Source of the DNA: Neisseria yangbaofengii
Lineage (GTDB): Bacteria > Pseudomonadota > Gammaproteobacteria > Burkholderiales > Neisseriaceae
Assembly: GCF_014898075.1 (NCBI RefSeq)
Contig: NZ_CP062976.1
Location: 2,418,001-2,482,000, forward strand
DNA: 64,000 nt
Reading direction: 5' to 3'
The position numbers were made by a program, and so were the translations under genes. Below are positions 9,446 to 39,674 of this stretch, piece by piece. The notes below the pieces were generated by a model, which made no database searches, was not told the DNA's origin, and saw only the letters and a program-made list of their open reading frames with translations. How positions within the stretch are numbered: position 1 is the stretch's first letter; each line of letters begins with the position of its first letter.

Positions 9446-9498
9446 GCCGTTGTTGCATAGCTGAATGCTTCATGAAGAGAGGCCGTCTGAAAAAAATG

Positions 9499-9547
9499 AA
9501 CTGCACCCCAAAAGTTGGACACCCCTCCAACTTTAAAAGGTGCAGTT
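9499..9547 (+). promoter_or_regulatory. IS left-end hairpin over the orfA ribosome binding site
   Basis: AACTGCACC (9499-9507) pairs with GGTGCAGTT (9539-9547), and AAAGTTGGA pairs with TCCAACTTT inside it. The orfA AAAAGG sequence (9535-9540) lies at the 3' arm, six bases before the orfA ATG region. A transcript entering from outside would fold here and hide the site. The same structure is present in all three copies. Confidence 0.55.
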
Positions 9548-9552
9548 TTCTT

Positions 9553-9900
9553 ATGTCCAAATATAACCTACACTTCAAATACCGAGCCGTACTCCATTAT
9601 CACCAAGTGCACAGCCAACAGCGCACCGCAGAGCACTTCAACGTCTCGCGCACCCACCTGCGCCGTTGGATAGCCGCCTATCGCCAAGGCGGTATCGCCG
9701 CACTTCAACACCCGCAGGCTGCGTTTATGAAGACCAAACGCAAAAACCCGTTTATCGCCGACAAACCCGACCACGAAAAAACCCGGGCGGAACTGATTGA
9801 AGAGTTACGTTACATGAGGGCGGAGAACGACTACCTAAAGCACATGAAAGCCCTCAACGAAAAGAACGCCGCCAAAGCTGCGAAACCGTTCAAACGTTGA
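9553..9900 (+). CDS. IS3-family transposase OrfA, copy 1
   Basis: The 115-residue protein has an N-terminal helix-turn-helix (YHQVHSQQRTAEHFNVSRTH, about residues 15-34) that binds the IS ends. A C-terminal leucine/coiled region follows (ELIEELRYMRAENDYLKHMK), used for multimerisation. The start at 9553 lies just after the left-end hairpin. The stop overlaps the OrfB start (TTGA), so OrfB could arise by reinitiation or by a -1 frameshift; an AAAAG run at 9860-9864 is one possible slip site. Confidence 0.88.
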   Translation: MSKYNLHFKYRAVLHYHQVHSQQRTAEHFNVSRTHLRRWIAAYRQGGIAALQHPQAAFMKTKRKNPFIADKPDHEKTRAELIEELRYMRAENDYLKHMKALNEKNAAKAAKPFKR

Positions 9901-10697
9901 GAGCGAAGCACCCGCTGAAATATCTGCTGCACAGTGCCGGCATTCCCAAAAGCAGCTTTCATTACCATATCGGCAAAGCCGATCCCGATGCGGCGGCCAA
10001 AACCGCAGTAAGTGAAGTCTATCGCCGACACAAAGGCCGCTACGGTCATCGGCGGATTGCCGCCGTATTGTCATGGAACAAAAAGAAAGTGCAGCGCATT
10101 ATGGGTTTGTTGGGACTGAAAGCCAAAGTCCGCAGCAAAAAAGCCTACCGTCCGCAGGTAATAGGAGAGGCTTCGGATAATATTCTTAATCGTGAATTTA
10201 CTGCCGGCAAACCGGCAGACAAATGGCTGACCGATGTGACGGAGTTCAAATGCACAGACGGGAAGCTGTACTTATCGCCGATATCGGATGTGTTTAATCG
10301 GGAGATTGCGGCCTATTCTTTAAGCCGCAAAGCAAACAGTAAAATGGTGGCGCAAATGTTGGATAAAGCATTTGGCCGTCTGAAAGGCCAAACGCCGCTG
10401 CTGCATTCCGACCAGGGTGTGCTTTACCGCACCGGGGCTTATCGGGCGAAACTGGCTGGGAAAGGAATGGTGCAAAGCATGTCGCGCAAAGGAAATTGCC
10501 GGGACAATGCGCCGATGGAGCGTTTCTTCGGTACATTAAAAGAAGAGAGCTTCTATCAGGAAGGTGCGTTGTCGGTGGCAGAGCTGACAGAGGTAATAGA
10601 TGATTACATACATTACTACAATCATGAGCGGATTAGTTTAAACTTAAAAAAGCTGAGTCCTGTCGGCTACAGAACCCAGCTTGAAAAGGCTGTTTGA
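9897..10697 (+). CDS. IS3-family transposase OrfB (DDE integrase), copy 1
   Basis: The 266-residue frame opens at TTG 9897, overlapping OrfA by four bases. An HTH_21-like segment (RRHKGRYGHRRIAAVL) is followed by the rve integrase core. Catalytic acidic residues are visible in KWLTDVTEF, LLHSDQGVLY and MERFFGTLKEE (D, D, E). In IS3 elements the active protein is usually an OrfAB fusion. The frame is intact, so this copy may be active. Confidence 0.88.
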   Translation: MRAKHPLKYLLHSAGIPKSSFHYHIGKADPDAAAKTAVSEVYRRHKGRYGHRRIAAVLSWNKKKVQRIMGLLGLKAKVRSKKAYRPQVIGEASDNILNREFTAGKPADKWLTDVTEFKCTDGKLYLSPISDVFNREIAAYSLSRKANSKMVAQMLDKAFGRLKGQTPLLHSDQGVLYRTGAYRAKLAGKGMVQSMSRKGNCRDNAPMERFFGTLKEESFYQEGALSVAELTEVIDDYIHYYNHERISLNLKKLSPVGYRTQLEKAV

Positions 10698-10772
10698 GAA
10701 AGATTCTTAACTTGTCCAAGTATTGGGGGGCAGTTCAAAATTCAGACGGCCTTTTTGAATCATTTCGTTTTA

Positions 10773-11252
10773 TTATTTTGGTAGGACTTTATCACAGTTA
10801 CCAGGTGTCGCCATATTTAGACGAGAGATTGCGGCTTTCCCTGTTGCTTCATCTACTTGTTCCAAATTTGCACCGCCAACAAAGGCTCCCATTTTGATAT
10901 ATTGGCGAACGAAATAATTTTTACCGGCATCGGTATTAATTGTTAAGTGATTTTCTGAAAACTCTGATTCAGTAGATAATTTATGAGGTTGATTACCAGT
11001 AACCTCTCTATAAAAGAAGACTTTATCTGCAGATTGACCCAAGCATTCGCCATCTACCCAGATATCTTTTTTCAATGCTTTTCCAACAAAACTGTCTCGA
11101 TAAACATATAAACCTGCATTTCCTTCTGACGGTTTGTTAAATTCTTTGGCTTTATTAGAAGCAGTTGCATCTGCCATGCTTACAGATGCGCAGCCGCTTA
11201 GGATAGATAAAGTGAGACTTACTGCAATCATACTATTCAGTAAAATTTTCAT
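10773..11252 (-). CDS. DUF2846-type lipoprotein
   Basis: The 159-residue protein has a lipoprotein signal peptide ending at the lipobox LSGC (Cys about residue 21). The remainder has the beta-rich pattern GLYVYRDSFVGKALKKDIWV and a later GKNYFVRQYI of DUF2846 proteins. Their role is unknown; membrane anchoring by acylation is predicted. It lies on the opposite strand between pyrH and frr, which are normally neighbours, and its codon usage is more AT-rich than the flanking genes. It may be a later insertion into this block. Confidence 0.75.
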   Translation of the reverse strand: MKILLNSMIAVSLTLSILSGCASVSMADATASNKAKEFNKPSEGNAGLYVYRDSFVGKALKKDIWVDGECLGQSADKVFFYREVTGNQPHKLSTESEFSENHLTINTDAGKNYFVRQYIKMGAFVGGANLEQVDEATGKAAISRLNMATPGNCDKVLPK

Positions 11253-11584
11253 ACTATTTCCTTTATTAGGTGAAGATTTTTTAGGTTATTCTACATGTTG
11301 AGTAGTAAATCGATAATATATGTAAAAAATATTTTCCAAAATAAACATTATAGAAGGTTTAAATAGTGTACAGAAGACATTCAGATGAATAGACAAAGAT
11401 GCACATCAAAACTTAATTGTTAAATATCGGTTAAAAAACAAGGCCGTCTGAACGGTTTGGCTTGTCGGAATGCTTGATTAACGGTACTATTCAACGTTAT
11501 TAAGCCGATTTGTGCGCCCAAAAAGCGTGTTTCAGACGGCCTGAGTCCTTATCTGTTTGATTTTAATAATAAGTGAGCTAAGAA
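11253..11584. other. Intergenic region before frr
   Basis: This AT-rich stretch holds the promoter region of the minus-strand lipoprotein gene (an A/T-rich stretch at 11300-11350). Two uptake sequences in opposite orientation near 11441 and 11533 are about 80 bases apart. I see no further gene. Confidence 0.6.
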
Positions 11585-12142
11585 ATGATTAGTGATATTC
11601 AAAAAACCGCTGAAAGCAAAATGCAGCGGTCGTTGGAAGTGTTGAAGGAAAACCTGTCTAAAGTCCGCACCGGCCGTGCGCATACCGGCTTATTGGATCA
11701 AGTGGAAGTGGAATATTGGGGCAGCATGGTACCGGTGAGCCAAGTGGCCAACGTGACTTTGATCGATTCGCGTACCATCGGTGTGAAACCGTTTGAAAGC
11801 AATATGGCAGCCAAAGTGGAAAAAGCGATTCGCGATTCTAATTTGGGTCTGAACCCTGCGGCGGTAGGCGATTTGATTCGCGTGCCTATGCCGATGTTGA
11901 CCGAAGAGCGCCGTAAAGATTTGATTAAAGTCGTGCGCAGCGAAGCCGAAGAAGGCCGCGTGTCTATCCGCAATGTGCGCCGCGATGCCAATGACCACAT
12001 CAAAAAATTATTGAAAGACAAAGGAGTACCGGAAGATGATGCGCGCCGTGGTGAAGAAGCGGTGCAGAAACTGACCGACAAATACATCGCCGAAGTAGAC
12101 AAAACCCTGGCTGCCAAAGAAGAAGATTTGATGGCTATCTAA
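11585..12142 (+). CDS. frr: Ribosome recycling factor
   Basis: The 185-residue protein dismantles the post-termination ribosome with EF-G. It has the usual length and the family sequences [15 protein letters not shown] and [20 protein letters not shown]. It forms a three-helix bundle with a beta/alpha/beta insertion. It starts the run frr-uppS-cdsA with short spacings. Confidence 0.98.
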
Positions 12143-12216
12143 ATCCTGATTTCAGGATTTGAAACAGGCGGGGCGGTTGGCTCTGTCTTTGCGGTCTTTC
12201 TTCCAATGAGGCAAAC

Positions 12217-12963
12217 ATGAACAGCAGTACGCAAACAATTTTGGCGCATACCGACGTGCCACGTCACATTGCCGTGATTATGGACGGTAACGGACGCTGG
12301 GCAAAAAAACGCTTTCTGCCCCGTGTAATGGGGCATAAACGCGGTCTTGATGCGCTTGAAACCATGGTGAAGCATTGTGCCGAAAGGGGCGTGCAATACC
12401 TGACCGTGTTTGCCTTTTCAACGGAAAACTGGCGCCGCCCCGAAGATGAAGTTTCTTTTCTGATGGGGCTGTTTTTGCAGGCTTTGCAAAAGCAGGTGAA
12501 GCGGTTGCACGAAAACAATATGCGCTTGAAAATTATCGGCAGCCGCGAACGGTTTCATGCCGATATCGTGGCGGGCATTGAAGCGGCCGAAGCGCTGACG
12601 GCCGGCAATACCGGCCTGACCTTAAGCATCGCTGCCGATTACGGCGGCCGCTGGGATATTTTGCAGGCGGCCAACAAAGTGATGGCCGAAGGCCATAGCG
12701 AAATCACCGAAGCGCTCATCAGCCGCCATTTGATGCTGGGCGATGCGCCCGAGCCGGATTTGTTTATCCGCACCGGCGGCGAAACCCGCATCAGCAATTT
12801 CCTATTGTGGCAGATGGCTTATGCCGAGCTGTATTTTACCGATGTGTTGTGGCCGGATTTCGACGAAAAAGCCTTAAGCGCGGCCATCGCATCTTTCCAA
12901 AAACGCGAACGCCGTTTCGGACGCACTTCCGAGCAATTGCCGGTAGAGCAGCAAAGGGGTTGA
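12217..12963 (+). CDS. uppS: Undecaprenyl diphosphate synthase
   Basis: The 248-residue cis-prenyltransferase makes the C55 lipid carrier for peptidoglycan and lipopolysaccharide. Signature residues are visible: HIAVIMDGNGRWAKKR (catalytic Asp in MDGNGRW) near the N-terminus, and the C-terminal PDLFIRTGGETRISNFLLWQ. It stops four bases before cdsA, indicating translational coupling. Confidence 0.97.
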   Translation: MNSSTQTILAHTDVPRHIAVIMDGNGRWAKKRFLPRVMGHKRGLDALETMVKHCAERGVQYLTVFAFSTENWRRPEDEVSFLMGLFLQALQKQVKRLHENNMRLKIIGSRERFHADIVAGIEAAEALTAGNTGLTLSIAADYGGRWDILQAANKVMAEGHSEITEALISRHLMLGDAPEPDLFIRTGGETRISNFLLWQMAYAELYFTDVLWPDFDEKALSAAIASFQKRERRFGRTSEQLPVEQQRG

Positions 12964-12967
12964 AACG

Positions 12968-13765
12968 ATGTTGAAACAACGAATCCTTACCGCACTGGTG
13001 TTGCTGCCTGTGATGTTGGTCATGCTGTTTTATGCACCTGACGGCCTGTGGGCGGCATTCAGCGGTCTGATTGCACTGGTAGCTCTGTGGGAATATGCCC
13101 GCATGAGCGGTTTGAGCAAAATCCAAATCAACCATTTCATCGTCGCCGGCCTGATTTTCGGCATCGTTGCCTATTTGGGCGATTGGAAACTGCCAAACGT
13201 GGTGTGGTATGCCGTGTTGGCGTTTTGGCTGCTGATTATGCCGCTGTGGCTGAAGAATAAATGGAAGCTCAAAGGAGGCTGGCAAGCGTATGCCGCCGGC
13301 TGGATGTTGATGCTACCGTTTTGGTATGCCTTGGTCGATTTGCGCCCAAGCCCTGAAAGCGCCGTGCCGCTGCTGGCGGTGATGGGTTTGGTGTGGGTGG
13401 CCGATATTTTCGCCTATTTCACCGGCAAGGCATTCGGTAAAAACAAAATCGCGCCAACCATCAGCCCGGGGAAAAGCTGGGAAGGTGCTATCGGCGGCGC
13501 AGTGTGCGTGACTTTGTACATGACTTGGGTATGGTATGCGGATTGGCTGGCGTTTGAAACCGGTTGGCCGAATGTGCTGTTAATCGGTTTTGTGTTGACC
13601 GTGGTCGGCGTGTGCGGCGATTTGCTGGAAAGCTGGCTCAAGCGCGCGGCCGGCATGAAAGACAGCAGCAACCTTTTGCCCGGCCACGGCGGTGTGTTCG
13701 ACCGTGTGGACAGTCTGATTGCCGTCTTGAGCGTGTATGCCGCCATGATGGCGATTTTGAATTAA
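12968..13765 (+). CDS. cdsA: Phosphatidate cytidylyltransferase
   Basis: The 265-residue integral membrane enzyme makes CDP-diacylglycerol from phosphatidate and CTP. About eight hydrophobic segments are apparent. The family signature is seen near the C-terminus in KDSSNLLPGHGGVFDRVDS, with the Asp residues expected to bind metal. It follows uppS directly and ends at an uptake-sequence terminator. Confidence 0.96.
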   Translation: MLKQRILTALVLLPVMLVMLFYAPDGLWAAFSGLIALVALWEYARMSGLSKIQINHFIVAGLIFGIVAYLGDWKLPNVVWYAVLAFWLLIMPLWLKNKWKLKGGWQAYAAGWMLMLPFWYALVDLRPSPESAVPLLAVMGLVWVADIFAYFTGKAFGKNKIAPTISPGKSWEGAIGGAVCVTLYMTWVWYADWLAFETGWPNVLLIGFVLTVVGVCGDLLESWLKRAAGMKDSSNLLPGHGGVFDRVDSLIAVLSVYAAMMAILN

Positions 13766-13810
13766 AGGCCGTCTGAACTGAAAACATACAGATAATTTTC
13801 AGACGGCCTT
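13764..13810 (+). terminator. cdsA uptake-sequence terminator
   Basis: AAAGGCCGTCTGAA and TTCAGACGGCCTT are inverted, with a loop of about 20 bases overlapping the end of cdsA. A second, tighter pair follows at 13849-13875. Confidence 0.8.
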
Positions 13811-13848
13811 CATTTTAAAAATATTTAAAGCAGCGAACATTTTATTCT

Positions 13849-13875
13849 ATGCCGTCTGAACGTTTCAGACGGCCT
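13849..13875. repeat. Tight inverted uptake-sequence pair before dxr
   Basis: ATGCCGTCTGAA-CG-TTCAGACGGCC with a two-to-four base loop, 17 bases before the dxr start. Confidence 0.8.
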
Positions 13876-13891
13876 AAGCAGAAATCAAACC

Positions 13892-15076
13892 ATGACCACA
13901 CAAATTCTCACCATTTTAGGCAGCACCGGCAGCATCGGTGCCAGCACCTTAGACGTGGTTGCGCGCCACCCTGACAAATTCCGCGTTTTCGCGCTGGCAG
14001 GGCATAAACAGGTTGAGAAATTGGCGGCGCAATGTGTGCAATTTGCACCTGAATATGCGGTGGCGGCCGATGGCGGGTATGCTGCGAAGCTGCAAAATTT
14101 GCTGCAAGCCAAGGGTTGTAAAACCCAAGTGTTGCACGGTGCGCAAGCCTTAATTGATGTAGCGAGTGATGAGCAGGTCAGCGGCGTGATGTGCGCAATT
14201 GTTGGTGCGGCCGGCCTGCCTTCCGCTTTGGCGGCGGCGCAAAAAGGCAAAACCATTTATCTGGCCAACAAAGAAACCTTGGTCGTATCCGGTGCGTTGT
14301 TTATGGAAACCGCCAAGGCCAATGGCGCGACCGTGTTGCCAATCGACAGCGAACACAATGCCATTTTCCAAGTATTGCCGCGTGATTATCAAGGCCGTCT
14401 GAACGAGCACGGCATCCAATCGATTATTCTCACCGCTTCCGGCGGCCCGTTTCTTGAAACTGATTTGGCCGCGTTTGACAGCATCACGCCGGCGCAAGCG
14501 GTGAAGCATCCGAATTGGAGCATGGGGCAGAAAATTTCGGTGGACTCCGCCTCGATGATGAACAAAGGCTTGGAGCTGATCGAGGCGCATTGGCTGTTTA
14601 ATTGTCCGCCGGATAAGCTCGAAGTGGTGATTCACCCGCAGTCCGTTATTCACAGTATGGTGCGTTATCTCGACGGATCGGTGTTGGCGCAAATGGGCAA
14701 TCCCGATATGCGTACGCCGATTGCCTATTGCTTGGGCTTGCCCGAGCGCATTGAATCCGGCGTGAGCGCGTTGGATTTCGGCAGCTTGTCGGCCTTAACC
14801 TTTAAAGAGCCTGATTTCAACCGTTTTCCGTGTTTGAAGCTGGCCTACGATGCCATGCGTGCCGGCGGTGCGGCGCCTTGCGTGTTGAACGCTGCCAACG
14901 AAATCGCCGTGGCTGCGTTTTTAGACGGCAAAATCCGTTTTACCGATATTGCCAAAGTGGTGGCCGATTGTTTGGCGCATAATGTTTCAGACGGCCTCTG
15001 CGATATTGAAAGCCTGTTGGCACAAGATGCATACACACGCATTCAAGCGCAAGAATGCATTGACCGTTTAAAATAA
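13892..15076 (+). CDS. dxr: 1-deoxy-D-xylulose 5-phosphate reductoisomerase
   Basis: The 394-residue enzyme converts DXP to MEP with NADPH, the committed step of non-mevalonate isoprenoid synthesis. The NADPH loop [11 protein letters not shown] is at residues 8-18. Metal and substrate residues are in [12 protein letters not shown] and [18 protein letters not shown]. Two uptake sequences lie inside the reading frame (near 14393 and 14987). It feeds uppS function encoded just upstream. Confidence 0.98.
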
Positions 15077-15077
15077 T

Positions 15078-15113
15078 GTTCAGACGGCATCCTTTGATTA
15101 AGGCCGTCTGAAC
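15078..15113 (+). terminator. dxr uptake-sequence terminator
   Basis: GTTCAGACGGCAT and AGGCCGTCTGAAC form an inverted pair just after the dxr stop. One arm is of the AT dialect. Confidence 0.75.
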
Positions 15114-15143
15114 ACACAACATCAAAACATCAGGGGGATTTTT

Positions 15144-16484
15144 TTGCAAACCTTATTAGCATTTGTCGTTGCGATTCTGATTCTGGTCAGCCTGCACGAA
15201 TTCGGCCATTACATTGTGGCGCGTTGGTGCGGCGTGAAAGTATTGCGCTTTTCTGTCGGTTTCGGTAAGCCGTTTCTGACCAAAAAACGCGGCGACACCG
15301 AATGGTGTTTGGCTCCGATTCCGTTGGGCGGCTATGTCAAAATGGTCGATACGCGCGAAGGTAATGTGCCGGAACAAGACTTGCCTTATGCCTTCGATAA
15401 ACAGCATCCGGCAAAGAAAATCGCCATTGTCGCTGCCGGCCCGCTAACCAATTTGGCCTTGGCGGTATTGCTGTATGGCTTGAGTTTCTCTTTCGGCGTC
15501 ACCGAAATCCGTCCGTATGTCGGCATGGTTGAACCGGCCAGTATCGCTGCCAAAGCAGGATTCCGGCCGGGCGATAAAATCCAATCGGTCAACGGCACTG
15601 TTGTCGGGGAGTGGGGTGATGCCCAAACCGAAATCATTTTGAACGTGGAGGCAGGTAAGGTGGACGTGGCCGTTCAGACAGCTTCCGGTCAAGAAGCGAC
15701 ACGTGTGATTGACGCTGCCGGTACACAGGAAGCGGGTAAAATTGCGAAAAATAACGGCAACATCGGTCTGTGGCCTTTTAAAATCACCAACTATGTCGGA
15801 TTTGTGCAAGAAGGCAGCCCGGCCGAGCAAGCCGGTTTGAAGGAGGGTGATAAGCTGATCAGTGCCGATGGCCGTGAAATCGGCGAATGGGCGGTTTGGG
15901 CGGAATTGTTCCGCGACAGTCCGGGCAAGAAGCTGGGCGTGGTGTATGAGCGCAACGGCCAAACCTTTCAGACAGCCTTACGCCCGAATACAGTAGAATT
16001 GAAAGACGGTACCTTGGTCGGTCGCGTTGGCATAGCCGCTCAGCACGATGAAGTGTGGGACAAGCAGGTTCGCTTCCAATATACGCCGTCGGTTGGTAAA
16101 GCCTTTCAAATGGGTTGGGATAAAATGGTCGGCTATTCGGCCACCACCTTGAAATTTTTCGGTAAGCTGATTACCGGCAACGCTTCGGCCAGCCATGTTT
16201 CCGGGCCGTTGACGATTGCAGACGTCGCCGGTCGTTCGGCTTCTTTGGGCTTGCAGAGTTATTTGGAATTTTTGGCCTTGGTCAGCATCAGTTTGGGTAT
16301 TCTCAACTTGCTGCCGGTGCCTGTTTTAGACGGCGGGCACTTGGTGTATTATACCGCCGAATGGATACGCGGAAGGCCGTTGAGCGAGCGCATTCAGTCC
16401 ATCGGTTTACGATTCGGTCTGGCTGCCATGCTGATGTTGATGGCAGTGGCGTTCTTTAATGATATTAATCGTTTGTTTGGATAA
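15144..16484 (+). CDS. rseP: Site-2 protease RseP
   Basis: The 446-residue intramembrane zinc protease cleaves membrane-bound regulators such as anti-sigma factors and remnant signal peptides. The zinc motif HEFGH is at residues 19-23 in the first transmembrane segment. The partner motif [13 protein letters not shown] is near residue 400. Two PDZ domains lie between ([17 protein letters not shown] and [16 protein letters not shown]). The start is TTG at 15144 after AGGGGG, since no in-frame ATG fits the N-terminus. It lies four bases upstream of bamA. Confidence 0.96.
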
Positions 16485-16488
16485 TTGT

Positions 16489-21233: not shown

Positions 21234-22010
21234 ATGTCTCTCATCCACCCGACCGCCATCATCGACCCCAAAGCCCGGCTCGATTCCAGCGTGAAAGTAG
21301 GGCCTTACACCGTTATCGGCCCGAACGTGCAAATCGGCGCGAACACCGAAATCGGTTCGCACGTCGTGATTAACGGTCACACCACCATCGGCGAAAACAA
21401 CCGCATTTTCCAATTTGCCAGCTTGGGCGAAATCCCGCAGGACAAAAAATACCGCGACGAGCCGACCCGCCTGATTATCGGCAACGGCAACACCATCCGC
21501 GAATTCACCACCTTCAACCTCGGTACCGTGACCGGCATCGGCGAAACCCGTATCGGCGACGACAACTGGATTATGGCCTACTGCCACTTGGCGCACGACT
21601 GCGTTGTCGGCAACCACACCATTTTCGCCAACAACGCGAGTTTGGCCGGACACGTCACCATCGGCGATTATGTGATACTCGGCGGCTACACGCTGGTGTT
21701 CCAATTCTGTCGCATCGGCGACTATGCCATGACCGCGTTTGCTGCCGGCGTGCATAAAGACGTACCGCCATACTTCATGGCCGCAGGCTACCGCGCCGAA
21801 CCTGCGGGCTTGAACAGCGAAGGCATGCGTCGCAACGGCTTCACCGCCGAACAAATTGCCAGCGTGAAAGACGTATACAAAACCATTTACCATCGTGGTA
21901 TTCCGTTTGAAGAGGCTAAAGCCGACATCTTGAAACGCGCCGAAACCCAATCCGAATTGGCCGTGTTTAAAGACTTTTTCGCCGAATCCACGCGCGGCAT
22001 TATCCGTTGA
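21234..22010 (+). CDS. lpxA: UDP-GlcNAc O-acyltransferase
   Basis: The 258-residue trimeric enzyme performs the first step of lipid A synthesis. Hexapeptide repeats run from residue 3 to about 180, with the catalytic His in [17 protein letters not shown] helical C-terminal domain follows ([20 protein letters not shown]). In many relatives lpxB follows directly; here about 4 kb of IS and accessory DNA separate them. Confidence 0.98.
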
Positions 22011-22105
22011 TTAGGTTATAAAAAAATAGCAAAGGCCGTCTGAAACATGTGAACTGCACCCCAAAAGTTGGACACCCCTCCAACTTTAAAAGGTGCAGTT
22101 TTCTT

Positions 22106-22453
22106 ATGTCCAAATATAACCTACACTTCAAATACCGAGCCGTACTCCATTATCACCAAGTGCACAGCCAACAGCGCACCGCAGAGCACTTCAACGTCTC
22201 GCGCACCCACCTGCGCCGTTGGATAGCCGCCTATCGCCAAGGCGGTATCGCCGCACTTCAACACCCGCAGGCTGCGTTTATGAAGACCAAACGCAAAAAC
22301 CCGTTTATCGCCGACAAACCCGACCACGAAAAAACCCGGGCGGAACTGATTGAAGAGTTACGTTACATGAGGGCGGAGAACGACTACCTAAAGCACATGA
22401 AAGCCCTCAACGAAAAGAACGCCGCCAAAGCTGCGAAACCGTTCAAACGTTGA
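22106..22453 (+). CDS. IS3-family transposase OrfA, copy 2
   Basis: The 115-residue protein is identical in sequence to the OrfA of copy 1, with the same helix-turn-helix and coiled C-terminus. The stop codon overlaps the OrfB start by four bases. Confidence 0.88.
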   Translation: MSKYNLHFKYRAVLHYHQVHSQQRTAEHFNVSRTHLRRWIAAYRQGGIAALQHPQAAFMKTKRKNPFIADKPDHEKTRAELIEELRYMRAENDYLKHMKALNEKNAAKAAKPFKR

Positions 22454-23250
22454 GAGCGAAGCACCCGCTGAAATATCTGCTGCACAGTGCCGGCATTCCC
22501 AAAAGCAGCTTTCATTACCATATCGGCAAAGCCGATCCCGATGCGGCGGCCAAAACCGCAGTAAGTGAAGTCTATCGCCGACACAAAGGCCGCTACGGTC
22601 ATCGGCGGATTGCCGCCGTATTGTCATGGAACAAAAAGAAAGTGCAGCGCATTATGGGTTTGTTGGGACTGAAAGCCAAAGTCCGCAGCAAAAAAGCCTA
22701 CCGTCCGCAGGTAATAGGAGAGGCTTCGGATAATATTCTTAATCGTGAATTTACTGCCGGCAAACCGGCAGACAAATGGCTGACCGATGTGACGGAGTTC
22801 AAATGCACAGACGGGAAGCTGTACTTATCGCCGATATCGGATGTGTTTAATCGGGAGATTGCGGCCTATTCTTTAAGCCGCAAAGCAAACAGTAAAATGG
22901 TGGCGCAAATGTTGGATAAAGCATTTGGCCGTCTGAAAGGCCAAACGCCGCTGCTGCATTCCGACCAGGGTGTGCTTTACCGCACCGGGGCTTATCGGGC
23001 GAAACTGGCTGGGAAAGGAATGGTGCAAAGCATGTCGCGCAAAGGAAATTGCCGGGACAATGCGCCGATGGAGCGTTTCTTCGGTACATTAAAAGAAGAG
23101 AGCTTCTATCAGGAAGGTGCGTTGTCGGTGGCAGAGCTGACAGAGGTAATAGATGATTACATACGTTACTACAATCATGAGCGGATTAGTTTAAACTTAA
23201 AAAAGCCGAGTCCTGTCGGCTACAGAACCCGGCTTGAAAAGGCTGTTTGA
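22450..23250 (+). CDS. IS3-family transposase OrfB, copy 2
   Basis: The 266-residue DDE integrase starts at TTG. Compared with copy 1 it has YIRYYN in place of YIHYYN and KPSPVGYRTRLE in place of KLSPVGYRTQLE near the C-terminus; the catalytic segments are unchanged. It is presumably active together with OrfA. Confidence 0.88.
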   Translation: MRAKHPLKYLLHSAGIPKSSFHYHIGKADPDAAAKTAVSEVYRRHKGRYGHRRIAAVLSWNKKKVQRIMGLLGLKAKVRSKKAYRPQVIGEASDNILNREFTAGKPADKWLTDVTEFKCTDGKLYLSPISDVFNREIAAYSLSRKANSKMVAQMLDKAFGRLKGQTPLLHSDQGVLYRTGAYRAKLAGKGMVQSMSRKGNCRDNAPMERFFGTLKEESFYQEGALSVAELTEVIDDYIRYYNHERISLNLKKPSPVGYRTRLEKAV

Positions 23251-23335
23251 GAAAGATTCTTAACTTGTCCAAGTATTGGGGGGCAGTTCAATGTTTTTCA
23301 GACGGCCTTTTGTCCGGTTTGCCTGTACCTACATC

Positions 23336-30366: not shown

Positions 30367-30373
30367 TAAATCG

Positions 30374-31186: not shown

Positions 31187-31220
31187 AATGATTTTCAGAC
31201 GGCCTAAGTAACAGTTTAGA

Positions 31221-31264
31221 AAAAACAAAAAAGAGCAGAATATGGATTCTGCTCTTTTTTGTTT
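31221..31264. terminator. Strong bidirectional terminator after argA
   Basis: AAAAAAGAGCAGAAT-ATGG-ATTCTGCTCTTTTTT is a perfect stem with T tracts in both directions, just past the argA stop. Confidence 0.92.
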
Positions 31265-31275
31265 AACGCTTTGGC

Positions 31276-32580: not shown

Positions 32581-32587
32581 GTGGGAA

Positions 32588-32992: not shown

Positions 32993-33034
32993 GGGTAGAC
33001 CCGTTTCGTAATGTAGGGATTTGGTTGTTATGTA

Positions 33035-33064
33035 CAGGCCGTCTGAATTTTTTCAGACGGCCTG
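33035..33064. terminator. Uptake-sequence hairpin after pyrE
   Basis: CAGGCCGTCTGAA-TTT-TTTCAGACGGCCTG with a short loop, eight bases past the pyrE stop. Confidence 0.82.
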
Positions 33065-33071
33065 AATTCTA

Positions 33072-33713
33072 TCAGGCCACGCCGTAACGTTCGCGGTAAG
33101 CCTTCACCGGCTCGAAAAAGCCGCCGAATTCGGTATTGTTTTGCAACAACGTGAACAAATCGTTCAAATTCGCAATCGACACCACCGGCAAACCGTATTG
33201 CTGCCCGACTTCCTGCACCGCCGACAATTCGCCCGTGCCTTTTTCCATGCGGTCAAGCGCGATGGCCACAGCGGCCGGAGTGGCACCTTCGGCTTCAATC
33301 AGTTTCACCGATTCGCGCACCGAAGTGCCGGCAGAAATCACATCATCGATAATCAGCACGCGGCCTTTGAGCGGCGCACCAACCAACACGCCGCCTTCGC
33401 CGTGGTCTTTTGCTTCCTTGCGGTTGTAGGCAAACGGCACGTTCACGCCTTTTTCTGCCAACATCATCGCCGTGGCCGCTGCCAAAATAATGCCTTTGTA
33501 GGCGGGACCGAACAGCATGTCGAATTCCACTTTGCTGGCAGTAATCGCTTCGGCGTAAAACTTCGCCAGTTGCAGGGTAGAAGCTCCATCGTTAAAGAGG
33601 CCGGCATTGAAAAAATACGGCGACCGGCGGCCGGCTTTGGTGGTGAATTCGCCGAATTTCAATACGTTTTGAGACAAGGCAAATTTCAGGAAATCTTGGC
33701 GGAAATCAGACAT
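33072..33713 (-). CDS. pyrE: Orotate phosphoribosyltransferase
   Basis: The 213-residue enzyme joins orotate and PRPP to give OMP in pyrimidine synthesis. The PRPP motif RVLIIDDVISAGTSVRES is visible, as is the substrate loop region AYNRKEAKDHGEGG. The start at 33713 (MSDFRQDFLKFAL) matches the family; the extra five codons upstream are unlikely to be used. Confidence 0.97.
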   Translation of the reverse strand: MSDFRQDFLKFALSQNVLKFGEFTTKAGRRSPYFFNAGLFNDGASTLQLAKFYAEAITASKVEFDMLFGPAYKGIILAAATAMMLAEKGVNVPFAYNRKEAKDHGEGGVLVGAPLKGRVLIIDDVISAGTSVRESVKLIEAEGATPAAVAIALDRMEKGTGELSAVQEVGQQYGLPVVSIANLNDLFTLLQNNTEFGGFFEPVKAYRERYGVA

Positions 33714-34052
33714 AACACAGGCTTTCAAAAGGCGTTGATTTAAAATGGGGATTGTAGGATTATAAAGGATTGCGCGGCAAAACCCAAAGGCCGTCTGAAA
33801 AAAATGTTGTGTTCGGACGGCCTTAAGCTGGAAATGCCGGAAATAGGGTAGGCGATTAGGAGGGCGAAAGCATATCTAGACAAAATATTTTTGCACGCCA
33901 TTGCACGCAAATACGCGAAAAGCTCCGTTAATCTCATGATTCAACCGAATAGCATTATTTATTTAGAATATCAAACATTCCCTTAATAATTACTATGGGC
34001 ATATTGATATGCCTTAACGATTTATTTTGAAATAAGCGAAAAGGAAAAGAGC
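33714..34052. other. Intergenic region between pyrE and the TbpB-like lipoprotein
   Basis: An uptake sequence (AGGCCGTCTGAA) near 33788 and an opposite, altered copy (TTCGGACGGCCTT) near 33811 form a weak hairpin. The rest, up to 34050, is AT-rich and probably carries the lipoprotein promoter. I see no gene. Confidence 0.6.
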
Positions 34053-34802
34053 ATGAAACAATATTTGGCCTTATTGTGTGTGGCGGCATTGGCCGCTTGT
34101 GGTGGCGGTGGCGGCGGCACCCCGACAACGCAATCAACCCCGACCAATACACCCAATCAAACTTCGTCAACTGAGGCAAGCCCGCAGAATATTTCAGGTA
34201 AACAGTTTTACAGTTCGCAGAACAGCAAAGCCGATGCCGTTACTTTTGACAACAGTAACATCAAAAAAATTAAAATCAATGGCGTCGATATCGACTTAGC
34301 GACCATTGGCGGCGGTAATTTTAACAATGATTGGCGCGGTAATTTCGGCGGTATTCGTTCCGGTAATGCCAATGCACCTGCCGGTGTCAGCGATTGGCTG
34401 GTTTACAATCAATCCGACAATTTAGTTGCCGGCGTGATTACGCAAGAGGGTAACAACTATGCTTTTTACAACGGTAAATTTACGGATGCCGAACAAATTC
34501 CGGCAGCAGGCCAATCAGTTTACAAAGCCGGCGTGACATACTTTAGCGGCGACAGACAAGTATTAAGCCGCACGGATGTGACGGCTGATTTCGGTGCTAA
34601 AAAAGTGACTGCCGAAATTAAGCGTGATGCAGAGTTTGGCGGTAACATCGCCTTGAATGCCGACATCAAAGGCAATAAATTTGCTTCTGTCACAGGAGCA
34701 GCCACACAGGTTGAAGGCGGTTTCTTCGGTGCAAATGCGGCGGAAATCGGTGGTATCTTTAAAGCCGGTGAAACCGTTGGTGCGTTTGCCGGTAAAAAGT
34801 AA
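34053..34802 (+). CDS. Surface lipoprotein with TbpB-like beta-barrel
   Basis: The 249-residue protein has a lipoprotein signal (lipobox LAAC, Cys 16) and a Gly-run and Thr/Pro-rich flexible linker (residues 17-45). The C-terminal domain ends GGFFGANAAEIGGIFKAGET, with VGAFAGKK last. This ending (FxGxxAxExGGxF, then F-x-G-K) is the mark of the TbpB beta-barrel fold shared by TbpB, NHBA and factor H-binding protein. Such lipoproteins are usually moved to the cell surface by Slam; no Slam gene is visible in the window. The ligand is unknown. AAGGA lies before the start. Confidence 0.82.
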   Translation: MKQYLALLCVAALAACGGGGGGTPTTQSTPTNTPNQTSSTEASPQNISGKQFYSSQNSKADAVTFDNSNIKKIKINGVDIDLATIGGGNFNNDWRGNFGGIRSGNANAPAGVSDWLVYNQSDNLVAGVITQEGNNYAFYNGKFTDAEQIPAAGQSVYKAGVTYFSGDRQVLSRTDVTADFGAKKVTAEIKRDAEFGGNIALNADIKGNKFASVTGAATQVEGGFFGANAAEIGGIFKAGETVGAFAGKK

Positions 34803-34831
34803 CGCTTTGAATTAATGATATAAAGCAATAT

Positions 34832-34868
34832 AAAAGGCCGTCTGAAAACTGTTTTTCAGACGGCCTTT
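34832..34868 (+). terminator. Uptake-sequence terminator
   Basis: AAAAGGCCGTCTGAAAA and TTTTTCAGACGGCCTTT pair after the lipoprotein gene. Confidence 0.85.
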
Positions 34869-34937
34869 CCCAATAAAAAGCTAAGCCCGGCAAGTTCTGT
34901 TACAATCTTTTTTATTTCATTTTTAAACACACTCATT

Positions 34938-35714
34938 ATGCTGAAAATCATCTCTGCCAACGTCAACGGCATCCGTTCTGCTTACAAAAAAGGTTTTTAC
35001 GAATACATCGCCGCTTCCGGTGCGGACATTGTCTGCGTGCAGGAATTAAAGGCGCAGGAAGCGGATTTGTCGGAGGAAATGAAGCAGCCGCACGGTATGC
35101 ACGGGCATTGGCATTGTGCGCAAAAACGCGGTTACAGCGGCGTGGCAGTTTACAGCAAGCAAAAGCCGGATGCGGTGCAATACGGTATGGGTATTGAAGA
35201 ATTCGACGGCGAAGGGCGGTTTGTGCGTTGTGATTTCGGCAATCTGACCGTAATTTCGCTGTATTTGCCCAGCGGCACCAGCGCGCCGGAGCGTCAGGAA
35301 TTGAAGTACCGTTTTTTGGATGCGTTTTATCCGATGTTGGCGGCGATGAAGGCGGAAGGGCGCGATATTGTGGTGTGCGGCGACTGGAACATTGCCCATC
35401 AGAATATTGATTTGAAAAATTGGAAAGGCAACCAGAAAAATTCCGGTTTCCTGCCTCAAGAGCGCGAGTGGATTGGCAAAGTGATTGCGACCTTGGGTTG
35501 GACGGACATGTGGCGCACGCTTTATCCTGAAGTGCCGGGCTATACATGGTGGAGCAACCGCGGCCAAGCCTATGCGAAAGATGTGGGTTGGCGGATTGAC
35601 TATCAAATGGTGACGCCGGAATTGGCGGCCAAGGCGGTGTCGGCGCATGTGTATAAAGACGAAAAATTCTCCGACCACGCGCCTTTGGTGGTGGAATATG
35701 ATTATGCGCTGTGA
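34938..35714 (+). CDS. xthA: Exodeoxyribonuclease III family AP endonuclease
   Basis: The 258-residue Mg-dependent enzyme cuts at abasic sites in base-excision repair. It shows the family steps ISANVNGIRSA, CVQELKAQ (metal Glu), VCGDWNIAHQ (catalytic Asp-Trp-Asn) and KFSDHAPLVVEYD (terminal Asp-His). Neisseria carry two such enzymes, NApe and NExo; overall sequence suggests the NApe type, from memory. Confidence 0.95.
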   Translation: MLKIISANVNGIRSAYKKGFYEYIAASGADIVCVQELKAQEADLSEEMKQPHGMHGHWHCAQKRGYSGVAVYSKQKPDAVQYGMGIEEFDGEGRFVRCDFGNLTVISLYLPSGTSAPERQELKYRFLDAFYPMLAAMKAEGRDIVVCGDWNIAHQNIDLKNWKGNQKNSGFLPQEREWIGKVIATLGWTDMWRTLYPEVPGYTWWSNRGQAYAKDVGWRIDYQMVTPELAAKAVSAHVYKDEKFSDHAPLVVEYDYAL

Positions 35715-35736
35715 GGCCGTCTGAAACGGAAATGTT

Positions 35737-36270
35737 ATGTTGAGCGCGTATGACCTTGAAGATTTGACGCTGTTGCTGGTGCACGATACCGAAGTGCCGC
35801 CCTTATGGATGGAACGTTGGGCGGTGAGTTATCCGATTATGCTGCAGGCCGAAGTATCGCGTTCGCAAAGCGTTCGGGAATGGCAGCAGGCGGTTCAGAC
35901 GGCCTTTGCCGCACACCAAAGCCGTCATGTTGCGGTGGTGGCGCACGGCGCGGGTGTATCGGCGGTGTTGGCGTGGCTGTATCAGGCCGATGTGAATGTG
36001 CAGAAAACCGTATGCAACATTATTTTAGTGTCGCCGCTGCCGGAAGCGTTTCCCGATGATGCCGGACACACTTTGCAACGTGTCCGCTGCCATTGTCGCG
36101 CGGCCCTGGTGATTGGGCAAAGCGGCGATTGCCCGCTTGATTGGGCGCAGGAAAAAGCGCTGCGCTGGAATGCGCGTTTGCTGGTATCGCCGCACGAAGG
36201 CCGTCTGAACGGCGCTTTGAGCGGTTGGCAATGGGGTATGAAGCTTATGCAGGAAATGTTATTGACGTGA
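35737..36270 (+). CDS. RBBP9/YdeN-like alpha/beta hydrolase lacking the nucleophile
   Basis: The 177-residue protein has the short serine-hydrolase fold of the RBBP9 family: TLLLVHDTEVPPLWMERWAV at the start, then VAVVAHGAGVSAVLAWL where relatives have a GHSxG nucleophile elbow. The Ser is replaced by Gly (HGAG), so normal hydrolase activity is not expected. A possible terminal His is in LLVSPHEGRLNG. It lies 22 bases after xthA and is probably cotranscribed with it. A frame-internal uptake sequence occurs at 36199. Confidence 0.72.
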   Translation: MLSAYDLEDLTLLLVHDTEVPPLWMERWAVSYPIMLQAEVSRSQSVREWQQAVQTAFAAHQSRHVAVVAHGAGVSAVLAWLYQADVNVQKTVCNIILVSPLPEAFPDDAGHTLQRVRCHCRAALVIGQSGDCPLDWAQEKALRWNARLLVSPHEGRLNGALSGWQWGMKLMQEMLLT

Positions 36271-36450
36271 ATAAATTAGAATAATTTCACTAAAAAAGGC
36301 CGTCTGAACAGCGTATAAAAGGAATGTTTTAATTTCTATAAGGCTTTTGGGAAGGCGGCCTTTCACAGATGGTTAAGTCGGATATTGATGGCATAACATT
36401 TTTTAGATTTCGTATGAATAAACGACACAAATTTTTTCAAATATGTAGTT

Positions 36451-36478
36451 GATTGTTTACAATTAGAGTTGTAGTATA
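36451..36478 (+). promoter_or_regulatory. Likely promoter of the ACP gene
   Basis: TTGTTT (36451-36456) and TATAAC (36473-36478) are spaced by 16 bases, about 60 bases before the ACP start. Confidence 0.45.
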
Positions 36479-36537
36479 ACGTTTCGTTCGGACGCTAAGT
36501 CCGGATGAATCGTGTGAAATAAACAAGGACAATCAAC

Positions 36538-36921
36538 ATGAAAAAATGGTGTGTAATGGCTATGGTTGCTGTAATGGCCGCCGCCGGCGCAGCGCAAGCT
36601 GCCAACAATAACCCAACGGTCAGCAAAAAAACGGTATCTTACCGTTGCGACCAAGGTCATGCGTTGAACGTAACGTATGGATTCAACAAACAAGGCTTGC
36701 CGACCTATGCTTCGGCTTTTCTCAATGGCAAAAGACGTGTGTTGCCGATTAATCTCGACCATTCCGGCGCTGCAGGTACGATGTTCGGCAAAGAAGACAG
36801 CTACATGATGAACGCCGATTACATGGATACCAAAAATTACCACAAATCGGCGCTGATGGTGACTGAGCCGGACAACAGTATTCTGTATAAAAACTGTGAG
36901 CCGCGCCGTAGCCGCCGTTGA
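36538..36921 (+). CDS. Adhesin complex protein (ACP), MliC-like lysozyme inhibitor
   Basis: The 127-residue protein has a signal peptide ending at AQA (about residue 21). Its mature part, NNPTVSKKTVSYRCDQGHAL then VTYGFNKQGLPTYASAFLNG, closely follows the neisserial ACP pattern. Two Cys (in YRCDQG and KNCEP) should form the disulfide. Neisserial ACP is an outer-membrane adhesin that inhibits human C-type lysozyme. It is preceded by its own promoter and followed by an uptake-sequence terminator. Confidence 0.88.
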   Translation: MKKWCVMAMVAVMAAAGAAQAANNNPTVSKKTVSYRCDQGHALNVTYGFNKQGLPTYASAFLNGKRRVLPINLDHSGAAGTMFGKEDSYMMNADYMDTKNYHKSALMVTEPDNSILYKNCEPRRSRR

Positions 36922-36941
36922 TATGTTTTTTTAATTCAAAC

Positions 36942-36980
36942 AAAGGCCGTCTGAAAGCATATTCTTTCAGACGGCCTTTG
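36942..36980. terminator. Bidirectional uptake-sequence terminator
   Basis: CAAAGGCCGTCTGAAAG and CTTTCAGACGGCCTTTG pair between the convergent ACP and endonuclease/exonuclease/phosphatase genes. Confidence 0.87.
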
Positions 36981-36998
36981 TTTGATAGCCGACCACTG

Positions 36999-38078
36999 TT
37001 AATTCTGCAATTCCATCGCGGCATCGATTTTATCCGCTGCTTCCTGTTCGTCGCCGTGGTCGGATTCCGGCGTTTCGTGGACATGTTCTGCCGGCGGGTG
37101 ATATTGGAATTTGCCGTAAATCGGAAAATGATCGGAGCCGATGTGCGGCAATACTTTCAAATCCGCGACCAAGAAATCGTTGCTGTGAAAAATATGGTCG
37201 AGCGGCCAGCGCAGCAGTTTCCAATCGGCATGAAAGGTGTTGTACAAACCGCGGCCGATACGTGGGTCGAGCAGGCCGCTGATGCGTTGGAATAGGCGCG
37301 AGGTATCTGACCAAGCGACGTCGTTCAAGTCGCCAAACACCATACAGCTTTCATCGGAAGCGGCGATTTCTTTGCCAACCAACAAAAGTTCGCCGTCCCG
37401 TTCGGTTGAGGTTTCGCTTTCAGTCGGGCTGGGCGGCATCGGGTGCAGGCAGTAAATGCGGATAAGTTCGCCACCGGGCAGCCCGACTTTGGCGGTAATC
37501 GACGGAATATCGTCGCGCACGCGGTATTTGATTTCTGCATCATGCAGCGGCAGGCGGCTGTATAGATGCATGCCGTAAAGATTGTCGAGTGGCACTTTGA
37601 CTGTGTAAGGATAGTCGGTTTCCAATTCCGCCAGTGCATTTTCCCACCATTGGTCGCTTTCCAAGGTGAGCACTACATCAGGACGGTATTGGCGCACGAG
37701 CGACAACAATTTACCGGCCTGGCGGTTGGGCGTGAGCACATTGCTGGCCAGAATGCTGACGGTGCGGTTGTTGTCTTCGCCCTGATAACCCATCACCTGC
37801 TTTTTTCTCAAGCGGGTGTAGGCGCTGATTTGCCAAAACTGCCACACGGCGCAGGCAAAGTTCACCACTTCCATCAAATCGAAAATGGCATTACTGCTTT
37901 GTTCCAGCCAATAATTGAGCAGCATGCACAACACGCTCAAGGCGGCAATTTGCAGGCGCGGGAAATCGAATATCCGCATCACCCAGTGGTCGGATTTCAG
38001 CAGCGACAGCAGGGTAGCCGCTACAGGCACACACAACAGCGCCAACAGCAGCCAATCGCCTAAGGGTAAATCGGACAT
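36999..38078 (-). CDS. Membrane-anchored endonuclease/exonuclease/phosphatase family protein
   Basis: The 359-residue protein has N-terminal hydrophobic segments (LLLALLCVPVAATLLSLL, LQIAALSVLCMLLNYWL and FACAVWQFW). The catalytic domain carries SILASNVLTPNRQ, VVLTLESDQWW (metal Glu), MVFGDLNDVAWS (Asp-x-Asn) and the ending IGSDHFPIYGKF (Asp-His). The domain should face the periplasm. Relatives cleave DNA, phospholipids or inositol phosphates; the substrate is unknown. The C-terminal tail is acidic and His/Glu-rich. Confidence 0.82.
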   Translation of the reverse strand: MSDLPLGDWLLLALLCVPVAATLLSLLKSDHWVMRIFDFPRLQIAALSVLCMLLNYWLEQSSNAIFDLMEVVNFACAVWQFWQISAYTRLRKKQVMGYQGEDNNRTVSILASNVLTPNRQAGKLLSLVRQYRPDVVLTLESDQWWENALAELETDYPYTVKVPLDNLYGMHLYSRLPLHDAEIKYRVRDDIPSITAKVGLPGGELIRIYCLHPMPPSPTESETSTERDGELLLVGKEIAASDESCMVFGDLNDVAWSDTSRLFQRISGLLDPRIGRGLYNTFHADWKLLRWPLDHIFHSNDFLVADLKVLPHIGSDHFPIYGKFQYHPPAEHVHETPESDHGDEQEAADKIDAAMELQN

Positions 38079-38390
38079 AATCGTTTCCTGATGAAATCTT
38101 GGTCGTTGCCAAACACGTTTTCGCCACTGCCATCATTCGTCACGGTGAAGCTAATCGGTATGGCGGACAACAGAGCCTAGGCCGATGTTAAAAGATGAAG
38201 CCGCTTAGGGCAATTTGAAGTTTGATTGGCGAATGTTTCATTATCCATTTTAATGAATGCTTTGTAAACGTGGAAGGATAATGCGGCAAAAGCCTGTGTT
38301 GATTGGCGGATACCGCCAGTCAATAAGCAAAGGCCTCAAAACAAGTTTGCTGTAAGCCGTCGAGAAATGATCAAGGCCGTCTGAAAAAAT
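38079..38390. other. Intergenic region before IS copy 3
   Basis: About 310 bases with no gene. A hairpin GTTGATTGGCGG-ATA-CCGCCAGTCAAT is visible at 38298-38323, and the left arm of a surA uptake-sequence terminator ends at 38390. Confidence 0.6.
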
Positions 38391-38446
38391 TGAACTGCAC
38401 CCCAAAAGTTGGACACCCCTCCAACTTTAAAAGGTGCAGTTTTCTT

Positions 38447-38794
38447 ATGTCCAAATATAACCTACACTTCAAATACCGAGCCGTACTCCATTATCACCAA
38501 GTGCACAGCCAACAGCGCACCGCAGAGCACTTCAACGTCTCGCGCACCCACCTGCGCCGTTGGATAGCCGCCTATCGCCAAGGCGGTATCGCCGCACTTC
38601 AACACCCGCAGGCTACGTTTATGAAGACCAAACGCAAAAACCCGTTTATCGCCGACAAACCCGACCACGAAAAAACCCAGGCGGAACTGATTGAAGAGTT
38701 ACGTTACATGAGGGCGGAGAACGACTACCTAAAGCACATGAAAGCCCTCAACGAAAAGAATGCCGCCAAAGCTGCGAAACCGTTCAAACGTTGA
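38447..38794 (+). CDS. IS3-family transposase OrfA, copy 3
   Basis: The 115-residue protein differs from copies 1 and 2 by Ala to Thr (HPQATF) and Arg to Gln (EKTQAEL). The helix-turn-helix is unchanged and the frame intact. Confidence 0.88.
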   Translation: MSKYNLHFKYRAVLHYHQVHSQQRTAEHFNVSRTHLRRWIAAYRQGGIAALQHPQATFMKTKRKNPFIADKPDHEKTQAELIEELRYMRAENDYLKHMKALNEKNAAKAAKPFKR

Positions 38795-39591
38795 GAGCGA
38801 AGCACCCGCTGAAATATCTGCTGCACAGTGCCGGCATTCCCAAAAGCAGCTTTCATTACCATATCGGCAAAGCCGATCCCGATGCGGCGGCCAAAACCGC
38901 AGTAAGTGAAGTCTATCGCCGACACAAAGGCCGCTACGGTCATCGGCGGATTGCCGCCGTATTGTCGTGGAACAAAAAGAAAGTGCAGCGCATTATGGGT
39001 TTGTTGGGACTGAAAACCAAATTCCGCAGCAAAAAAGCCTACCGCCCGCAGGTAATAGGAGAGGCTTCGGATAATATTCTTAATCGTGAATTTACTGCTG
39101 GCAAACCGGCAGACAAATGGCTGACCGATGTGACGGAGTTCAAATGCACAGACGGGAAGCTGTACTTATCGCCGATATCGGATGTGTTTAATCGGGAGAT
39201 TGCGGCCTATTCTTTAGGCCGCAGAGCAAACAGTAAACTGGTGGCGCAAATGTTGGATAAAGCATTTGGCCGTCTGAAAGGCCAAACGCCGCTGCTGCAT
39301 TCCGACCGGGGTGTGCTTTACCGCACCGGGGCTTATCGGGCGAAACTGGCTGGGAAAGGAATAGTGCAAAGCATGTCGCGCAAAGGAAATTGCCGGGACA
39401 ATGCGCCGATGGAGCGTTTCTTCGGTACATTAAAAGAAGAGAGCTTCTATCAGGAAGGTGCGTTGTCGGTGGCAGAGCTGACAGAGGTAATAGATGATTA
39501 CATACGTTACTACAATCATGAGCGGATTAGTTTAAACTTAAAAAAGCTGAGTCCTGTCGGCTACAGAACCCAGCTTGAAAAGGCTGTTTGA
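38791..39591 (+). CDS. IS3-family transposase OrfB, copy 3
   Basis: The 266-residue DDE integrase differs from the other copies at about eight positions. Examples are KTKFRSKK, LGRRANSKLV and HSDRGVLY, where copies 1 and 2 have HSDQGVLY beside the second catalytic Asp. All three catalytic acids are kept, so it may be functional. Confidence 0.88.
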   Translation: MRAKHPLKYLLHSAGIPKSSFHYHIGKADPDAAAKTAVSEVYRRHKGRYGHRRIAAVLSWNKKKVQRIMGLLGLKTKFRSKKAYRPQVIGEASDNILNREFTAGKPADKWLTDVTEFKCTDGKLYLSPISDVFNREIAAYSLGRRANSKLVAQMLDKAFGRLKGQTPLLHSDRGVLYRTGAYRAKLAGKGIVQSMSRKGNCRDNAPMERFFGTLKEESFYQEGALSVAELTEVIDDYIRYYNHERISLNLKKLSPVGYRTQLEKAV

Positions 39592-39674
39592 GAAAGATTC
39601 TTAACTTGTCCAAGTATTGGGGGGCAGTTCAAATAGTTCAGACGGCCTTGATTGTTTATGCGCAATTGAAGCGC

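Follow-up and report, generated by a model that had tools for sequence, protein, structure and literature searches.

Most copies of an IS3-family insertion sequence in Neisseria lie in hairpins formed by inverted DNA uptake sequences

In the available portions of Tobes and Pareja 2006 (PMC1525189), the insertion sequences (ISs) ISKpn1 and IS1397 are described as inserting in palindromic units, or repetitive extragenic palindromic (REP) sequences, of Klebsiella and Escherichia coli, and this targeting is reported as experimental. Here we describe a related 1241-bp IS3-family element of Neisseria, present in three copies in a 64,000-nucleotide stretch of the Neisseria yangbaofengii genome (RefSeq assembly GCF_014898075.1, contig NZ_CP062976.1, positions 2,418,001 to 2,482,000; hereafter the window). 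Among the plasmid matches listed, the best for its OrfB protein were IS3-family proteins at ∼51% identity, including that of ISKpn1 at 50.7% over its length. The two elements also resemble each other in their ends (TGGACTGCACCCC in ISKpn1, TGAACTGCACCCC in the Neisseria IS) and in their 3-bp target-site duplications (TSDs), but the Neisseria IS is ∼200 bp shorter (1241 versus 1445 bp). Unlike ISKpn1, which we compared by sequence, and IS1397, which we compared by description only, it targets an inverted pair of DNA uptake sequences (DUSs), and its cut mostly follows one arm of the pair even in hairpins with long loops.

A repeated palindromic target and a sharp insertion point are shared with the REP-targeting elements ISPsy8, ISPa11, ISPpu9/10, and ISRm22, of which ISPsy8 belongs to the IS3 family and the others come from other families, according to the excerpted text of PMC1525189. 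None of them is described there as targeting an uptake signal, and the target of the Neisseria IS is a DUS pair, not a REP or palindromic unit. The same excerpts give a looser REP association for ISNm1106 (IS5) of Neisseria meningitidis. The structure that serves the Neisseria IS as a target is the DUS terminator of Neisseria (Ambur et al. 2007, as cited in the accessible parts of PMC3898611 and PMC3049150). No IS targeting these terminators is mentioned in the portions available of PMC3898611, PMC2397512, PMC3049150, and PMC3630211, and a literature search conducted mostly outside subscription papers, and in partial texts, returned nothing on an IS targeting DUS or the uptake signal sequence (USS) of Pasteurellaceae. 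A clade of palindrome-targeting ISs is already known; within the literature searched, the uptake sequence as the target is the new part.

Insertions between DUS arms across the genus

The three copies in the window, all on the forward strand, lie at 9497 to 10737 (copy 1), 22050 to 23290 (copy 2), and 38391 to 39631 (copy 3). Copy 1 is flanked by the TSD AAA (9494 to 9496 and 10738 to 10740) and sits between a left DUS arm, GGCCGTCTGAA, at 9481 to 9491 and a right arm, TTCAGACGGCC, at 10741 to 10751. Copy 2 has the TSD ATG (22047 to 22049 and 23291 to 23293) between arms at 22034 to 22044 and 23297 to 23307, and copy 3 has AAT (38388 to 38390 and 39632 to 39634) between arms at 38375 to 38385 and 39637 to 39647; all arms and duplications are given on the forward strand. 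An earlier note on this DNA had placed the copies, arms, and duplications at these same positions and had proposed that removal of the IS restores a DUS terminator at each. When the IS and one TSD were removed, the joined sites folded as DUS hairpins (−25.6, −25.1, and −29.4 kcal/mol for sites 1, 2, and 3). The T-run after the restored hairpin was poor at site 3 (CCTTGATTG) and good at the other two sites.

The genome of this strain, a single contig of 2,645,607 bp, contains 11 near-full IS copies, three broken or partial copies, and one 82% relic. A DUS arm was found within 2 to 13 bp of all 13 left ends (within 7 bp in 12 of these) and within 2 to 6 bp of all 14 right ends, the right arm at L007 having one mismatch; the left end of the relic is likewise preceded by GCCGTCTGAAT. 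In total, the genome has 3583 DUS cores and 686 inverted pairs of the form GCCGTCTGAA-N0-30-TTCAGACGGC, and the interiors of these hairpins make up ∼0.29% of positions, as estimated from the average interior of the 100 pairs that come first in the list of 686. The chance of finding 13 of 13 copies in hairpins is P ∼1e-33, or ∼1e-24 if only noncoding DNA is counted (∼21%, the figure for the window from a crude open reading frame [ORF] mask, applied to the genome).

Across the genus, the IS or a fragment of it was identified in 27 of 46 Neisseria genomes, with copy numbers that are minima because nine candidates were scored per genome. We sampled 60 copies from ten genomes, mainly full or near-full, and set aside short fragments as well as the split G043 copies. 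The 72 copies tested comprise these 60 and 13 from the N. yangbaofengii genome (a number that does not include L013, a right end only), less L063 (right end missing). Allowing up to 2 mismatches per arm, 63 of the 72 copies lay between two DUS arms within 45 bp, as expected of the ISKpn1/IS1397 clade, which inserts inside intergenic palindromes; six had one arm and three had none (62, 7, and 3, respectively, with up to 1 mismatch per arm). A wider look placed L075 in a DUS pair with a long loop as well. Control positions had both arms at a rate of 0.3 to 0.6% (129 of 20,000 random window positions; 4 of 1,440 flank positions). The nearest arm was at most 6 bp away for 67 of the 72 copies, compared with 282 of 20,000 random window positions (1.4%).

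Searches with short patterns gave a similar picture. The pattern GTCTGAA-N0-30-IS occurred at 145 places in 18 of the 46 genomes, and the reversed-pattern control at 0. Exact 22-bp left ends numbered 140 in 16 of the 46 genomes, and 122 of them had a GTCTGAA DUS arm within 30 bp (the two lists, of 140 ends and 145 places, were matched by eye). Among the 18 remaining left ends, seven had an exact right DUS arm (L081, L101, L103, L108, L341, L343, and L349, with ISs of unusual length at L341 and L349), and at least 129 of the 140 had a DUS arm on some side. The preference for DUS hairpins suspected in the earlier note is real, genus-wide, and positionally sharp, and most copies lie inside such hairpins rather than outside them.

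Cut position, empty sites, and relatives outside Neisseria

Left spacers at the 145 places measured 3 to 6 bp in 92 cases and 14 to 17 bp in 42; among far-class sites with both flanks read, it was mostly the right arm that lay near, at 3 bp. The flanking 3 or 4 bp were identical in 45 of the 72 copies, and this 3- to 4-bp duplication mostly lies directly against an arm at its GAA end or sits 1 to 2 bp from it. In G007 and G019, the stem often extends (AAAACC...GGTTTT), and many cuts fall inside the extended stem rather than in the loop. The arm rather than the loop center seems to set the place of insertion. Because most cuts are next to an arm at its GAA end, a simple cruciform loop is disfavored as the target, and the extruded-cruciform loop put forward previously is unsupported as stated, given also the in-stem cuts and the Haemophilus-type insertions outside the stem (see below). 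A cruciform is still conceivable in that paired DUSs are strongly preferred over solitary ones. The window has 16 empty DUS pairs (two of which fall within crude ORF calls) and 3 filled ones versus 35 solitary noncoding DUSs. That insertions are nearly confined to pairs shows that pairing or dyad symmetry plays a part.

The form of the arms, GGCC or GGTC, varies with the host. Copies in G007, G019, and G024 are mostly in GGTCGTCTGAA pairs, as is one copy in a named Neisseria sicca contig (L171), and L079 lies in a mixed GGCC/GGTC pair. The accessible text of Frye et al. 2013 (PMC3630211) describes AG-mucDUS, with a C-to-T change at +2, in N. sicca and N. mucosa.

Sites free of the IS were found in relatives. 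At trmB, G043 has an IS-free DUS hairpin with the same neighbors, and an IS-free DUS pair lies within 120 bp of the lpxA stop in 22 of the 29 genomes read. The right-hand neighbor of the lpxA site was matched in only one genome (G016, L112), where an internally deleted IS relic with both ends present, 83 to 84% identical and in opposite orientation, occupies positions 1940 to 2420. The relic, with lpxA on one side and the shared right flank on the other, lies where copy 2 does in the window and represents a separate insertion there. In G018, a different species, the IS copies are 99% identical, yet identity is only 81% in the lpxA region and 80% in that of trmB. Judged from these identities, the contrast would fit a recent transfer, whose route we infer, and it makes plausible the earlier suggestion that the IS is placed on DNA favored in natural transformation.

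Ten of the N. yangbaofengii copies have broken TSDs. In four of them (L003, L005, L006, and L010), two of the three bases match, and the odd base always touches the right end of the IS. IS-IS recombination that shuffles flanks does not explain the missing TSD at trmB, the sole site tested, because the two flanks adjoin each other in G043 and the right-hand duplication resembles ATG with one changed base.

We retrieved seven relatives from outside Neisseria (L371 to L377). Those from Citrobacter (L373; 4-bp duplication) and Halomonas (L377; 3-bp duplication) sit within clear terminator-like hairpins, and those in L372 (ISKpn1), L374 (Pantoea), and L375 (Acinetobacter) lie in shorter or bulged hairpins, as judged by eye, with 3-bp duplications. 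Only short arms were found computationally at the target of L371 (ISKpn1), which we take to resemble the Klebsiella palindromic unit, and no clear hairpin was seen at the target of L376 (ISKpn8). In a tree in which IS1397 was not among the rows, the Neisseria, Pasteurellaceae, and ISKpn1-type rows split from three Bacillota IS3 rows at 100/100; the branching order inside the proteobacterial group is less sure. This tree placed the Haemophilus group with the ISKpn1 type, apart from Neisseria, so the use of uptake signals may have arisen more than once.

In Pasteurellaceae, 42 exact left ends (41 unique) were found in 15 of 140 genomes. Of the unique ends, 12 had an exact USS, seven a USS with one mismatch, two a right-side USS, and three a facing USS within 8 bp; the remaining 17 showed none, and for 11 of these a right end was unavailable. 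An exact USS core (CCGCACTT or CCGCTTGT) lay at most 3 bp from the IS end at 18 of 76 unique junctions (26 of 76 with one mismatch allowed), the control rate of the exact test being 0.001 per position. At Hin-type sites where the right flank was read, seven of eight right flanks start with CTT, by eye, and the duplication therefore corresponds to the last three USS bases. Haemophilus-type insertions are outside the stem, and the USS need not be paired; some look solitary. In Bisgaardia (L177), the IS lies between inverted USSs. L258 and L251 (G046 and G047), apparently at the same Pasteurellaceae site, have near-identical right flanks and different USS-type left flanks.

Recognition of the target and alternative explanations

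With a probability of roughly 0.78, we consider the element an IS that targets palindromes and that, in its Neisseria branch, uses DUS hairpins. The clade to which this branch belongs would be a proteobacterial one within the IS3 family, of the ISKpn1 type and probably including IS1397, that inserts into short intergenic palindromes; the target in Neisseria would be the inverted DUS pair from which many terminators are formed. Probably by way of OrfA, the transposase would engage the DUS arms and make a staggered cut of 3 to 4 bp at the GAA end of one arm or 1 to 2 bp from it, leaving the IS between the arms. The transposase itself would do the recognizing, both arms would be read as a dyad, and the payoff would be a harmless landing and spread by transformation. 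The parts of this scheme taken from direct observation are the identity of the target, the position rule, the two DUS forms, the duplications, the IS-free hairpin in a relative, and the hairpin or uptake-signal targets of related elements. The cuts beside the arm, the cuts within the stem, and the insertions at USS ends lean toward reading of sequence.

Several observations weigh against this interpretation. A perfect 3-bp TSD was present in only three of the 13 copies in the N. yangbaofengii genome, exactly the three in the window. For eleven of the 140 left ends, the flanks that were read offered no clear DUS arm: L348 and L339 have a degenerate arm only, and none was seen at L340, L342, and L344 to L347 (for L339, L342, and L344 to L348, the right end was not found in the stretch). 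The other three are L062 and L080, which lie in a non-DUS palindrome starting with GGCCGTATGC, and L061, which has the right half of that palindrome. Moreover, the preference for pairing and the varied targets of the relatives lean toward recognition of structure. Finally, because 18 of the 24 strong noncoding hairpins in the window (stem ≥9) are DUS hairpins, counts by themselves hardly distinguish a preference for DUS from one for any hairpin, and support for a specialization on DUS is only moderate.

The competitor that survives best, which we regard as possible and on balance unlikely, is that the transposase recognizes any extruded cruciform or single-stranded hairpin and that DUS pairs are the commonest hairpins on offer. 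It would account for 63 of 72 copies lying between two arms although solitary noncoding DUSs are about as many as paired arms in the window, for the unrelated hairpins used by relatives, and for the palindrome of L062 and L080. It does not predict that the cut falls mostly beside the GAA end of the DUS, often in the extended stem in G007 and G019, or that the Haemophilus branch inserts outside the stem at solitary USSs. Selection in place of targeting appears very improbable. Under near-random insertion, only copies in terminators would survive, or DUS-adjacent copies would spread best by transformation, and hairpin loops, being intergenic, are likely harmless. Selection would, however, tolerate many intergenic sites, yet an arm lies within 6 bp in 67 of 72 copies compared with 1.4% of random window positions, and uptake would presumably need a DUS anywhere on the fragment, not 3 bp away. 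Slightly less probable still is homologous spread, in which recombination within the short identical arms carries a cassette of IS plus DUS from one hairpin to another. Flank exchange could produce the mostly imperfect duplications of the N. yangbaofengii genome (3 of 13 intact), but the loops vary in sequence from site to site, the flanking 3 or 4 bp are still identical at 45 of 72 copies, arms of ∼12 bp are short for recombination, and at trmB, the sole site where this was seen, the flanks are still adjacent in G043. That the arms belong to the mobile element, an objection the earlier note had raised against itself and one suggested by arms at nearly every copy, is refuted by the variable spacing between arm and IS, the arm form that follows the host, the position of the duplications inward of the arms, and IS-free hairpins such as that at trmB in G043.

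For comparison, we examined IS5-type relics at 13 places in the N. yangbaofengii genome, some of which are not this relic and whose boundaries are approximate; none of their ends was found between two DUS arms. In four cases (L330, L333, L334, and L337, with ends like GAGACCTTTGCAAA), the relic lies just outside a DUS core, at a distance of 2 bp, and in three of these a full DUS pair is adjacent, so terminators may also be attractive to other ISs.

Tentatively, and at slightly less than even odds, the clade may repeatedly have become an uptake-signal homing element, with a transposase that in two competent families reads the signal of its host and inserts at its A-rich end. If so, two DUS forms in Neisseria and two USS forms in Pasteurellaceae are read, and the IS rides on DNA imported by competent cells. 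Uptake sequences have classically been seen as guardians against foreign DNA such as transposable elements (PMC2397512, in the parts available); here they serve a selfish element as landing sites. The IS would gain several hundred probably harmless targets per genome, with flanks that favor import. The natural series of REP, terminators, two DUS forms, and USS offers material for studying how a transposase changes its target.

The element and its neighbors in the window

The IS has the ends TGAACTGCACCCC...GGGGGGCAGTTCA, read in copy 1, and its ORFs were read from that copy alone. On the forward strand, orfA (9553 to 9900) encodes a 115-amino-acid protein with a helix-turn-helix, and orfB (9897 to 10697) encodes the 266-amino-acid catalytic half (rve) of an IS3-family transposase (NF033516, 269.3 bits; cutoff, 160). 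The two genes overlap in different frames, which is the IS3-family layout of an OrfA with a helix-turn-helix and an OrfB with an rve/DDE core. Residues D113, D172, and E208 of OrfB, which we take to be the DDE residues, are invariant in an eight-row alignment. Terminal inverted repeats and a target duplication of 3 to 4 bp, the latter in the proportions of copies given above, also agree with this family, whose members further employ a programmed −1 frameshift and a circular intermediate. A sequence-based structure search for the IS protein found no solved relative.

A stem-loop, AACTGCACC...GGTGCAGTT, occupies the left end of the IS upstream of orfA (9498 to 9548 in copy 1, forward strand; fold z, −6.65). 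It is strong in five sequences (fold z, −4.3 to −6.7), and changes in the stem look compensated, by eye, in the relatives G021 and G039. The same position holds the stem-loop in copies 2 and 3, and L065, L101, L064, and L178 are also concerned. The stem-loop may block read-through into the transposase or substitute for the interrupted terminator. Within orfB of copy 1, an internal DUS (GGCCGTCTGAA) lies at 10374 to 10384 on the forward strand (IS nucleotide 878). Among 12 copies read, it is present in one subgroup of the IS, comprising those of G000, G018, G011, G006, and G021, and absent from the other seven, a distribution that does not support the idea that it follows the dialect of the host.

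Hairpin 1 lies downstream of pyrH (UMP kinase; 8726 to 9445, forward strand) and hairpin 2 downstream of lpxA (21234 to 22010, forward strand), as the earlier note had it. The third neighbor, which it had called surA, is only SurA-like and on the opposite strand: this peptidylprolyl isomerase gene (39675 to 40589, reverse strand) is upstream of hairpin 3 on that strand and scores 111.4 bits with PRK10770 (SurA), under the cutoff of 394. Its matches are peptidylprolyl isomerases, under the cutoffs of their models.

L055 and L056 of G011, which are in opposite orientation, each have a DUS flank on one side and an unrelated flank on the other, and a repeat is shared near both left flanks; the arrangement is perhaps an inversion between the copies. 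In copy 1 of the window, OrfB reads NCRDNAPMERF (10494 to 10530), compared with NCWDNAPMESF in most relatives, and copies with this variant are possibly less active.

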